The notes under the pieces were generated by a model that made no database searches, was not told where the DNA came from, and saw only the letters and a program-made list of their open reading frames with translations. Both the position numbers and the translations under genes were made by a program. DNA of 64,000 nucleotides from Botryosphaeria dothidea (taxonomy: Eukaryota; Ascomycota; Dothideomycetes; Botryosphaeriales; Botryosphaeriaceae), in the NCBI GenBank assembly GCA_011503125.2, contig WWBZ02000011.1:558001-622000 (forward strand), in the 5' to 3' direction. Shown here in pieces: positions 8,781-54,332 of the stretch. The stretch's first letter is position 1, and each line of letters starts with the position of its first letter.

Positions 8781-9613
8781 AGGTTAGTGTGGGCGGTAGG
8801 GAAAGGGGATTTGGATGTGGCCGAGAGGAAAAGTGGAAAGGTTGCGCAGTCGTGAGTGAAGTTGACTACAGAGTACGTAATCGATAGCGTCGTTCACCCG
8901 TTCACAGGTAGGTATTTAGAGACCTGACCTACTGGGCAAATTAATATTGCGTTAGACGCTCGTAGATTTCCGCGTCTTTCACGGGGGCCGCACATATACT
9001 CCATCGCCAATGCACTCATACCGCACCACCCGCGCACGCACTCTCTCCAACCCCCGACACCACCAATAATTGACCGAAGGAACTCCTCAATTCTATGTGC
9101 CAGGTTAGCGGTAGTGGAGGGTAGGTACTAATTCCCCACCTCTCAACTCCCTTTAGCGCCTTATCATCCACTGCCCCTCGCGCCGGTATCCACCAACTGT
9201 TGCTTGTGGGTCTTCTTTTAGTCTTCTTGGTAAGTTCTACCCATAGTTATCTTCTTTAGTTCCCGTAAACTATGTGAATCAGCGAGCCAACTCCGTTGCA
9301 TCTCGGCCATCACAGGCCCCAACACGTTGCACATGACACCCAACGAACCGTCGTCAGCACGCTAGATAGACGCCCGAAGGTGCTTCGGAAATGGATCAAG
9401 CGGCTTCAAGGATGCTTGAAGGGAAGCTCAAGGACAAGGCCCTCCTGGGTGAACCCCCTCGAAGAAGCTTGTCCCTGAGGAACCCCGCAAGAACCCGTCA
9501 GCGGTCGGTATTGCCCCAGGGTGTAAGCGCGCCGCTATCTCGTCCTGAATTAGAAGAGTGGCTTTGGCTTGTGTGAATGTACATTGATGACGATGAACGA
9601 GAAGAAAATAGGA

Positions 9614-9660
9614 GAAAAAAAAAGTCGACACTCAGCCGGGATTGAACCTGGAAGCCCTGG
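9614..9660 (-). other. tRNA 3'-half-like fragment with Pol III terminator
   Basis: On the minus strand there is a B-box-like GGTTCAATCCC followed by an acceptor-like segment and then a run of ten T residues (9614-9623). The putative T stem has two mismatches out of five pairs. I found no matching 5' half with an A box upstream. It is therefore most likely a tRNA relic or a chance B box. Confidence 0.3.
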
Positions 9661-51408: not shown

Positions 51409-51799
51409 TTGGTCTCAGCTGTTTCTAGCTTGTAAGCATTAAGGGGACCTGCTTCGCTATCTAGTCTATCCGGTCACATTCTCCATCTCATAGCTTTCGA
51501 CGAGGTTTTCTCCTCATGCTCACAAGAAGCGAGATTCTGGACACTGAGCTTCCCGCCGGCAACTCACCCTGCCTTCTTCAAGAAAGCTGATTCGAGTCCT
51601 TAACAAAATCTTTTGAATATGTCGAAGGCCGCAAAAATAGAAGAATCACACTGTCCTCTTCCGGCGGAATCGGCGTGTCTAACACACACAAACCCGTGGC
51701 GGATCTCCGGCCGGACTACCTTCAGCGCACAGATACCACAAGGGAAAAAAAGACCATCTGGACCCACAGCAAAAAAAAGGAACCAAAACACAAAAAAGT
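51409..51799. other. Intergenic region F-box gene / 5S rRNA
   Basis: 391 nt; contains the Pol III terminator of the 5S gene at its end (six A on the plus strand at 51792-51797). No other feature seen. Confidence 0.5.
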
Positions 51800-51918
51800 A
51801 CGTACAACAGCCGGGATTCCCCAATGGTCACCCACTTGAGTACTAATCAGCCGGTTCGCAGGTTCAATATCGGGGAGCGGACGGGACCCGTTGCTTTCTG
51901 CGGCCTATGGTCGTACGT
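51800..51918 (-). rRNA. 5S ribosomal RNA
   Basis: 119 nt, the usual 5S length. Helix I pairs ACGTACGAC at the 5' end with GTTGTACGT at the 3' end over nine base pairs (one G-U). Conserved 5S segments are present in order: GACCATAGG, GGGTCCCGTCCGCTC, TTAGTACT and GTGGGTGACCA, then GAATCCC. A T6 terminator follows directly on the minus strand. It stands alone rather than in the rDNA repeat, as is normal for Pezizomycotina, whose 5S genes are dispersed. The helix III/loop B part differs from textbook fungal 5S, so a variant or ageing copy is possible. Confidence 0.9.
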
Positions 51919-52600
51919 GGAAGGTGGAGTTGCAGACAGGCATTATAGATATTGGAAACGTGCGGCGACGGCGTGCGTGCTGGGACGGCAAGTGGCTGCG
52001 GGTGAGCATAATGGGGTCAGCGGGATAGGAAGAACTGAAGAAATCATAGAGGACCCTATACTACGGGGGAATAAGGCTGCTTGAAGGACAGTGGTGTCTC
52101 TACTCCATAATCCTTTTCCTCTGCGTCGGCCCGATTCCAGTAGCAGATATATTTGAGATGGAGCTCTCCCTCCCTCCCTCCCTCTCTCTCCCGATAATTG
52201 AGGACAGTTCCCTTTTTCTCTTACCTCTTGCTCCAGTGAGGCCGTCTGTATCTGACGTGAGGGAGTTCCCGAAGAAGTTCTTGATGACGCAAGCTATGGT
52301 TACCTACTTGCTGTCTGTCTTACCGCATCGAGCGGTCCGGCGAGGTGTTTCTGCGGCACAGAAAAACTCATCAAAGACCACCGTCACGCCCAGACACGCC
52401 TTTTCCTGGCAAATCAGCGTCTTCAGCGCATGGATCAATCTTGTTTTTGTAAATTAGGACAAAAGAGGTTCGAAAACCCAAAAGTGTTGTTGGTCCGCGC
52501 AGGCAGCCGTCCTCCACGAACAGTCATCACGACACAACAAAGAAAAAGGGTCGGCACCAACAAAGCATTGCTGCATTTCAAAATGACGAGAAGAAAAATA
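51919..52600. other. Intergenic region 5S rRNA / tRNA-Trp
   Basis: 682 nt with a CTCCC tandem near 52164-52186 and the Pol III terminator of the tRNA at 52594-52598. No coding region recognised. Confidence 0.5.
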
Positions 52601-52601
52601 T

Positions 52602-52753
52602 GAGGACGGTGCGATTTGAACGCACAGCCTTCAGGAAACTCCAGGTGAATGGTTGCTGGAATCTGACGCTATGAGGGGGATTAGTATAATGTGTGTATAG
52701 TGAGGATGCTGTGAATCAGGGATTGCGTACCGCTACCATTGCGCCACGCCCCC
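52602..52753 (-). tRNA. tRNA-Trp(CCA) with a canonical intron and a second GT-AG insertion in the D stem
   Basis: On the minus strand the acceptor stem pairs GGGGGCG (52753-52747) with CGTCCTC (52608-52602) over seven pairs including two G-U. The A-box region TGGCGCAATGG and the T arm GTGCG-TTCAAAT-CGCAC are perfect, the discriminator is A (52601), and a T5 terminator follows. The anticodon CCA is at 52659-52657. A 19-nt intron (52655-52637) after position 37 contains CTGGA, complementary to the anticodon loop, as usual for fungal tRNA introns. The anticodon stem has one A-C mismatch next to the loop. Between positions 24 and 25 there is a further 62-nt insertion (52730-52669) with GT and AG ends. 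Removing it gives GCGC-AATGGTA-GCGC, the exact tRNA-Trp D arm, so the gene may be functional. Confidence 0.8.
52669..52730 (-). other. 62-nt spliceosomal-like intron inside the tRNA-Trp gene
   Basis: On the minus strand it begins GTACGC, has TACTAAT at 52686-52680 and ends CTCATAG. These are the donor, branch and acceptor motifs of protein-gene introns in this window; the U2AF second intron also has ACTAAT shortly before its CAG. Its length fits their 50-80 nt range. It lies between tRNA positions 24 and 25, not at the standard 37/38 site. Confidence 0.7.
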
Positions 52754-52964: not shown

Positions 52965-54332
52965 TCACAACTCATCCTTCTGCCTCTGTTCCTCCTCCTG
53001 CTGCTGCTGCGCCTCGAACTTCGCCCTCTCCGCATTCTCATCCCACATCCTCTTCTTCGGATTGCGGGGCTTATCCGACTCCACCAGGGGCTCTCCATCC
53101 CCCCTCCTAGGCACATCATCTTCCGCCTGCGGCGCTGCGTCACCGGTCGCCGCTGATTCCGCCATCTGGCCGACCTGCTCGGACAGGCTCGGGTTCTGCT
53201 CCTGCTGTTGGGGATCACCCCGCTTGACCCCTGCGCCGCCGGCGCCCGCGCGCACGTGCTGGACGGGCTGGTCGGACATTCTGCGGTGTGGTTTGTTGCT
53301 GGCGCTGGGCTGGACAATGAGGCTCGTCGACGACGAAGCCGATAAAGTTGCTGCCTGAGATGAGAGGGCTTGGGTAGGTGCTGCGCCACCGGCGAGACCG
53401 ACTGCGACGAGGATGCTAAAGAGAAACTTGTACGCGAACTTGAGGGGTAACCAGGCGAACCACCAGAGGGGTCCGTAAAGGATGCGTCTGAAAAGGAGCC
53501 AACAGATTGTCGTGAGGAGGATGTAGAAGGTGGTCTCGAGGTACCAGGTGTCGCTCTTCTGGGATCGAAGGAGCGAGTTGACGAGGGTCTTCGAGTTGGC
53601 GAGGAGGGTGCTGAGGTCCGTGTATCGCTCTCCGAGCTCTGCGAGCGCGGCCGTGGATTGATCGAGTGTTTCTTGTGCGAAGCGGGAGCGCGACAGCTCC
53701 GATGTCATCAACTGGTGCGTGCGTCTCAGGGCGGCGGTGACGTCGCTCGAAGCGTTGGCGACGATCTCGTCCTGGGTGAGCTTCTCGGTGCCGCCACGTC
53801 GTCTCCCCGCGCCAGGAGTGGTGTTGCCTTCTTGGATGCCGGCGAAGAGGAGCTCGCGTTCTTTCTGCTTCGCGGCCTCTGCGTTGCGCTTGGCTTGTAG
53901 TTGAGCTTTGCGGAACTGGCTTCGTGCCCTGTTGGAGCTGGGGATCAGTGTTCATGTCCATTGGTGCTTTGGGAAGAATGTGCCCACTCACTGCTTGAGG
54001 CCTTCGCCCAGGCGCGCAACCTGTATGCTCAACCTGCTCTTCTCGCGCTCCTTCTCACTGTCTTTCTTCTTGCTACCGAGCGCACCGCCGGTGGCAAATT
54101 CCTCAACCTCTTGTCTTAGGAATTCAAGCTCCTCTTCTTGAAGCTTCAAGCTATCGTGGATCTCGGAGCTTAGCTCAACTCGTACGTCGCCCTCTTCGCC
54201 GTCGAGTGGAGTGGAACCGGGCTGGAACTGCAATTTGGCGAGACGGTAGATGAGCTGGACGGTCTGTTTGTTCTGATCGGACAGACCCGCGAGGCGTGTT
54301 GCGAGGGAGGAGGTGGTGGTTGAGGTTGTCAT
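52965..54332 (-). CDS. SEC20: Golgi-to-ER SNARE Sec20, ending in KDEL
   Basis: Exons 54332-53992 and 53928-52965 give 434 aa. Sec20 is a Qb SNARE of the ER that works with Ufe1, Use1 and Sec22 in retrograde fusion of COPI vesicles. Coiled-coil segments cover about residues 25-110, and the SNARE-like part ALRRTHQLMTSELSRSRFAQE is at about 180-200. A membrane anchor follows (TFYILLTTICWLLF, about 243-257) with a second hydrophobic stretch behind it. The long C-terminal part is polar and Gln/Glu-rich. It ends in KDEL just before the stop, equivalent to the HDEL retrieval signal at the lumenal end of yeast Sec20. The splice (CA-G, GCA CGA) keeps frame. The start ATG is the first in frame. Confidence 0.9.

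Follow-up and report, generated by a model that had tools for sequence, protein, structure and literature searches.

The tRNA-Trp(CCA) gene of the window, the 64,000-nucleotide stretch of Botryosphaeria dothidea DNA analyzed here, is interrupted in its D stem by a 62-nt insertion with the signals of an mRNA-type intron, and this gene together with at least 15 other tRNA genes very probably represents a set of functional Pol III genes that carry U2-type GT–AG spliceosomal introns in the tRNA body. The window corresponds to C7:558001-622000 of a 51.7-Mb assembly of 78 contigs. Across this assembly, 16 distinct tRNA genes at 19 places contained 20 GT–AG insertions, distributed over eight isotypes (Trp, Ser, Glu, Leu, Ala, Val, His, and Pro) and eight sites (8/9, 16/18, 18/19, 19/20, 24/25, 25/26, 30/31, and 57/58). 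The proposal of the initial annotation, that an mRNA-type intron had entered a tRNA gene, is supported at this level, and the phenomenon appears wider than claimed.

The window gene is read from 52753 to 52601, with the discriminator A at 52601, and has the following parts:

52601..52753, minus strand: tRNA-Trp(CCA) gene, 153 nt, with two introns
52731..52753, minus strand: 5' exon, tRNA positions 1-24, with paralogs for comparison
52736..52746, minus strand: A box TGGCGCAATGG, uninterrupted by the insertion
52669..52730, minus strand: GT–AG intron, 62 nt, between positions 24 and 25, GTACGC ... CATAG; paralogs provide an empty site and a diverged homologue
52680..52686, minus strand: branch-point motif TACTAAT, branch A 12 nt upstream of the intron end
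52656..52668, minus strand: middle exon, positions 25-37, anticodon CCA
52637..52655, minus strand: ordinary 37/38 tRNA intron, 19 nt
52601..52636, minus strand: 3' exon, positions 38-73
52609-52625, minus strand: T arm holding the B box, inside the 3' exon
52594..52598, minus strand: T5 run, Pol III terminator

The insertion reads GTACGC...TACTAATCCCCCTCATAG, with TACTAAT within. The locus had been described correctly as a tRNA-Trp(CCA) gene with a 62-nt insertion at 24/25, apart from a start placed one base away from the discriminator; the normal 37/38 intron is present, the A box, T arm, and terminator are intact as reported, and excision of the 62 nt restores the D stem GCGC/GCGC. Two other features of the window were recorded: a full-length 5S rRNA gene at 51799-51918 on the minus strand (81.1 bits), about 680 bases from the tRNA-Trp gene, and a Rax2 frame with 86% identity to Macrophomina phaseolina, 81% to Lasiodiplodia hormozganensis, and 80% to Diplodia seriata.

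Searching the assembly with the Trp 5' exon as a pattern (up to 3 mismatches) returned six places, five of them Trp and one Arg(TCG). The Trp gene at C12:5049207-5049294, of which a copy lies on C67, is intron-free and reads straight through the 24/25 site. A second insertion-bearing Trp gene, found on both C36 and C78 within a 3-kb stretch that is 100% identical between them, carries a different GT...TACTAAT...AG insertion of 58 nt (GTAAGT...TACTAATTCTCCTCATAG), also at 24/25. The middles of the two Trp introns were no closer to each other than shuffled sequence, with 130 of 200 shuffles scoring as well, and the spliced exons differed at few places, among them one T-stem pair altered on both sides. 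An A31-C39 mismatch is common to all three Trp genes, including the intron-free one. Because a second Trp gene has a different intron at the same site and 14 further distinct genes carry such insertions, a chance origin of the window insertion is excluded. The initial annotation had advised counting the tRNA-Trp genes and held that other intact copies, together with a lack of spliced reads, would point to a pseudogene; the count yielded the five Trp places, and the intron-free gene on C12 and C67 supplies one half of that ground for doubt.

The remaining genes were collected by several routes. Three patterns in which a branch motif and AG were combined with a B box were run, and the matched places were then read for tRNA identity; they yielded Ser(AGA), Glu(TTC), three Leu(CAG), three Ala(AGC), and Val(CAC) genes. 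With one pattern, 8 of 13 places were tRNA genes with a GT–AG insertion, against 3 places for the reversed pattern; the other two were not enriched (14 places versus 28 reversed, and 5 versus 6 reversed), and the tRNA genes among their places were identified by reading. A 14-mer from the Ala anticodon arm matched 7 places representing 6 distinct genes. Each has an insertion in the D loop, and three of the 6 distinct Ala(AGC) genes had a second one in the T loop; all 7 Ala(AGC) places found therefore carry an insertion. B-box and terminator searches brought in a His(GTG) gene with an insertion at 8/9, and a Pro(CGG) gene with two insertions was met by chance in a search with the Ala 5' exon. 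That search (up to 3 mismatches) gave 45 places against 46 for its reversed control, and its 7 exact matches were the known bearing genes. The other places examined were one at 2 mismatches, where no tRNA was seen, and three at 3 mismatches; some of the others were known Gly or Pro genes. Among further loci read, insertions were present in 1 of 20 (His), 0 of 5, 0 of 9 (two unclear), and 1 of 4 (Pro). No such insertion was present in the 44 tRNA family hits read on presumed nuclear contigs; these are the hits left from 61 once 16 on the presumed organellar contigs C14 and C26 and the C67 Trp duplicate had been set aside.

The catalogue is a lower bound: the three B-box patterns match a subset of B boxes, 63 of the 1497 candidates from a first look received a score in the tRNA family search, and Phe, Tyr, Asn, Ile AAT, and elongator Met are among the isotypes met in no search of the assembly. 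Genes were counted as distinct sequences because the assembly is partly redundant. C36/C78 and C3/C12 contain colinear tRNA genes in stretches with 100% identity over the 3 kb compared, and they differ elsewhere, for example in two Ala genes; C36 also holds an Ala 3' fragment. Neighboring tRNA-like genes with Gly-like ends at C12:1356560 and C12:1357000 (46.3 and 43.6 bits) have long anticodon-loop inserts, and U33 is not evident in them. Beyond this genome, the Trp 5' exon followed by GTANG had one match in viral contigs, with no tRNA there; a looser 17-mer matched 111 stretches, and bacterial and archaeal genomes contained no exact match.

All 20 insertions, 50-62 nt long, start with GT and end with AG at the exact border. 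The 5' sites are GTAAGT (9), GTTAGT (4), GTAGGT (3), GTAAGA (2), GTGAGT (1), and GTACGC (1), and the 3' ends are CAG (10), TAG (5), and AAG (5). A branch motif of the form CTAAY is present in 19 insertions and TTAAT in the remaining one, placing the branch A 10-13 nt upstream of the intron's 3' end. Since three of the searches demanded CTAAY, a fairer set consists of the 11 introns that came in otherwise, namely those of Trp C7, Trp C36, Ala C12, C36, and C78 (two each), His, and Pro (two); CTAAY occurs in 10 of these 11, and in 9 of 10 once the window intron, whose TACTAAT had already been singled out, is set aside. An intron-free paralog provides the empty site for the Trp, Ser, Glu, and His introns and for both Pro introns, and the borders in these genes are exact within about one base of sliding; those of the Leu, Ala, and Val introns rest on tRNA structure. 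The Glu C58 and Leu C8 introns, which lie at different tRNA positions, have their last 17 bases in common (TCTAACAATCTCAACAG).

These features were compared with mRNA-type introns of the same genome, as the initial annotation had suggested for the 62-nt insertion. De novo identification in 177 kb of the genome gave 19 unvalidated candidates, against 1 in reversed sequence. They are 49-89 nt long and have similar 5' sites, and the GTACGC start of the window intron recurs in 2 of the 19; the tRNA introns resemble these candidates in length and signals. The candidates more commonly have CTGAY (15 of 19) in place of the CTAAY of the tRNA introns, whose branch motifs are rather stronger than those of this unvalidated set. 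One tRNA intron (Ala C58) contains TTTT, where some Pol III transcripts could end.

Splice signals persist in all homologous D-arm introns. When the middles of 19 homologous D-arm intron pairs (Trp, Leu, and Ala) were each compared with 200 shuffles, the observed similarity was reached by at least 10 shuffles in 16 pairs and by 3-4 of 200 in two more, and the Ala C1/C69 pair exceeded all 200. The middles of the Ala T-loop introns are much better conserved, at 77-100%. Signals that are kept while intron middles diverge are what selection for splicing predicts, unlike decay.

The tRNA bodies obtained after splicing in silico also bear marks of constraint. Between the spliced bodies of paralogs, stem pairs showed 12 double-sided changes (Trp 2, Ser 1, His 3, Leu 3, Ala 1, and Pro 2), 1 G-U/G-C change, and no breaks. 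Glu was uninformative, its exons being identical to those of the intron-free paralog, and Val had no compared paralog. A U-U in the D stem is common to Ala, Val, and both Pro genes. After splicing, the predicted minimum-energy fold was a cloverleaf for Ser and His and a different structure for Trp and Pro; this comparison covered insertion-bearing genes for Trp. The best reading of these sequence data is that the bearing genes are functional tRNA genes with spliceosomal introns.

Standard tRNA finders handled these genes poorly. Given 15 of the genes unspliced (Pro was left out), ARAGORN called nothing in 7 and reported in the other 8 a tRNA with one intron of 64-98 nt placed at the anticodon loop; isotype and anticodon were right for Trp C36 and Leu C3. 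Once the GT–AG introns were removed, all 15 were recognized as tRNA genes, and for 10 the isotype and anticodon were correct; the isotype was wrong, with the 37/38 intron misplaced, in Trp C36, Leu C3, Leu C12, Ala C12, and Ala C36. Nine insertion-bearing sources all escaped cmscan at E<=0.1, a threshold at which it detected the intron-free genes of Trp, Glu, and His; it also missed the intron-free Pro piece, which was scanned as an incomplete sequence.

Pol III signals were then read by eye. The A box, B box, and T-run are retained in the bearing genes; the Ser A box is altered at its end by the insertion, and the T-run of three Ala genes lies more than 38 bases beyond the B box. Introns at 57/58, in the T loop, interrupt the B box itself in three Ala genes and one Pro gene. 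The B-box core GTTCRANYC occurs exactly in three of these four introns, as GTTCGAATC in two Ala introns and GTTCGATTC in the Pro intron, and is one base off in the third Ala intron; it is absent from the 16 other introns. In the three Ala genes with a T-loop intron, GGTTCAATTCC, an exact B box, also lies between the gene and the T-run. This arrangement suggests that the promoter is retained inside the introns that split it, and a tandem copy of the T-arm region is a possible origin of the intronic B box. Yeast U6 genes have a downstream B box, which, as here, has moved outside the mature RNA; in the present genes it lies within an intron, and for Ala after the gene as well. Unlike in yeast U6, the intron that holds it is the one that splits the normal B box.

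Several other elements with Pol III-like ends were noted. The 3' flanks of Ala(AGC) genes contain a short hairpin-like CTGGTT...CCAG or CTGGTTCAATTCCG between the gene and the T-run. A recurring GGTTCAAYYCCGGYKGAGTG followed by a T-run was seen at window positions 9605-9648 on the minus strand and at C1:4011707, C58:275890, and C58:3080788; a tRNA body was not evident upstream in the two copies read, that of the window among them, and no Rfam family matched at the gathering score. These copies may mark where transcripts of an undescribed family of Pol III RNAs end. A dispersed repeat ending in GGTTCGAATCCGGGTGGGGACTGTTRC and a T-run, which resembles a B-box-bearing SINE, occupies at least 11 places, among the matches listed:

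C1:12703, C1:63609, C1:4876885, C1:5685601, C3:9722, and C3:21658
C3:751080, C4:599847, C5:532057, C6:37470, and C6:859653

Four other explanations were weighed. The insertion-bearing genes might be pseudogenes while intact copies serve the cell, and intron-free paralogs do exist for Trp, Ser, Glu, His, and Pro. Against this stand the stems preserved among paralogs, bearing ones included, the splice signals that persist where most intron middles are near the shuffle level, and the Ala(AGC) family, for which no intron-free gene was found in two pattern searches and the 44 family hits read. Decay of the whole set is highly improbable on these grounds, and the suggestion in the initial annotation that the window copy might be dead is unlikely in view of the double-sided T-stem change relative to the C36 copy and the signals kept in that diverged intron. 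The same annotation had raised the idea of an introner. Twenty introns in 16 genes at eight sites do suggest repeated gain, and the Glu C58/Leu C8 pair had the top whole-intron score between isotypes (34 versus 25 for the next), a value uncalibrated by shuffling. The 17 bases that these two introns share are mostly branch and 3' signal, no pair of intron middles scored above the best of 200 shuffled pairs (21) except the Ala T-loop homologues (29-62), and the 62 nt of the window intron matched themselves alone in the genome at E<=10, a search that covered this one intron of the 20. The introner suggestion is thus unsupported for the window gene, and a mobile family spreading into tRNA genes has a very small probability of accounting for the set.

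Red algae, nucleomorphs, and archaea have ectopic tRNA introns that are cleaved by the tRNA splicing endonuclease, and the same process would here account for introns outside 37/38: sites 25/26 and 30/31 are among the archaeal non-canonical sites, and nucleomorphs and a red alga have introns in the D and T arms, according to the accessible part of PMC4090602. The enzyme probably acts on these transcripts anyway, given the 37/38 intron in all bearing genes but Ser. Its substrate motif is a different matter: with borders slid by -1 to +1, none of the 20 introns had the four-pair central helix of a strict bulge-helix-bulge motif with two 3-nt bulges, the best score being 3 of 4 pairs, in His and in two of the three homologous Ala T-loop introns at different slides. 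Nor does the endonuclease model predict that all 20 insertions should begin with GT, end with AG, and have a branch motif within a narrow range of distances, and we consider it extremely unlikely. The spliceosome might instead act on Pol II read-through transcripts and not on Pol III pre-tRNA; at the window locus, a Sec20 reading frame on the same strand stops at 52965, about 210 bases upstream of the tRNA-Trp gene, which would then lie in the 3' part of a Sec20 transcript. Retention of the Pol III signals, namely A boxes that adjoin introns, T-runs, and a B-box core within the introns that split the B box, argues against this reading, which is very unlikely.

Under the preferred explanation, spliceosomal introns in Pol III genes, a bearing gene would be transcribed by Pol III from its A and B boxes, the intronic B-box copy maintaining the promoter where a T-loop intron at 57/58 splits the original. 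The spliceosome would excise the GT–AG intron in the nucleus, allowing the D, anticodon, or T arm to form, and the tRNA splicing endonuclease would then remove the 37/38 intron where one exists. We infer transcription, spliceosomal removal, and the order of steps from positions, signals, empty sites, covariation, and divergence read from the sequence. End processing, export, and 37/38 cleavage have established requirements on the tRNA arms. Spliceosomal removal should precede the 37/38 step, and take place in the nucleus, because the interrupted arm cannot otherwise form.

This fungus thus probably needs its mRNA-splicing machinery for part of its tRNA supply. In the case of Trp, Ser, Glu, His, and Pro, the bearing copies could in principle be dispensable because an intron-free gene exists for each. 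Obligate use of the spliceosome is best argued for Ala(AGC), since all matches to its anticodon arm and all exact matches to its 5' exon bear insertions and the family hits read include no Ala(AGC) gene; these searches could have missed an intron-free Ala gene that has diverged.

Spliceosomal introns are known in the U6 snRNA genes of some yeasts and fungi, including Schizosaccharomyces pombe, and these, like the tRNA insertions described here, are spliceosomal introns in a Pol III non-coding RNA. U6 differs in being part of the spliceosome and in having no tRNA body, no second, endonuclease-type intron, and no split B box. Rogers and colleagues reportedly described in 1993 an mRNA-type intron in the nuclear 18S rDNA of deuteromycete fungi; as here, an mRNA-type intron would reside in a fungal structural RNA gene not transcribed by Pol II, although that transcript is a Pol I product and an rRNA. 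The canonical nuclear tRNA introns, those at 37/38, are the substrates of the tRNA splicing endonuclease. They co-occur with the insertions in the bearing genes, except in Ser, and differ from them in their one fixed site and their lack of GT–AG ends or a branch motif. Nuclear tRNA genes with several introns in the D, T, and anticodon arms are described for Cyanidioschyzon merolae and for nucleomorphs in the accessible parts of PMC4090602 and PMC3978253. According to the same parts, the ectopic introns of C. merolae rely on bulge-helix-bulge motifs, which in strict form are absent here, and those of Guillardia theta are 3-24 nt long, compared with 50-62 nt and splice-site and branch signals in the present genes (PMC4090602, PMC3978253). 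No report of spliceosomal introns in tRNA genes was found in the open-licence literature searched: the accessible parts of PMC13149111, PMC11782384, PMC3978253, PMC6543705, and PMC6777427 contain none, and 'spliceosom' has no occurrence in the accessible part of the review PMC4090602. To our knowledge, a known intron class is found here in a host RNA, tRNA, where it had not yet been described.

In the usual account, the spliceosome serves mRNA and a few other RNAs, and 37/38 tRNA introns are handled by a dedicated protein enzyme; here, both splicing pathways seem to act on one precursor. If this is true, standard tRNA finders miss or misread the bearing genes, and testable questions follow: how the spliceosome recognizes a Pol III transcript that is uncapped and about 150 nt long, in which order the two splicings occur, and how structural RNA genes gain introns. 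Introns harboring a copy of the very B box that they interrupt would clearly exemplify the relocation of a promoter element into intronic sequence. It is likely that the spliceosome regularly takes part in tRNA maturation in this lineage, acting on all Ala(AGC) tRNAs and on parts of at least seven other isotypes, with some pre-tRNAs losing two spliceosomal introns and one endonuclease intron and with Pol III promoters moved into the introns that split them. Translation in this fungus would then need the spliceosome through the supply of tRNA.
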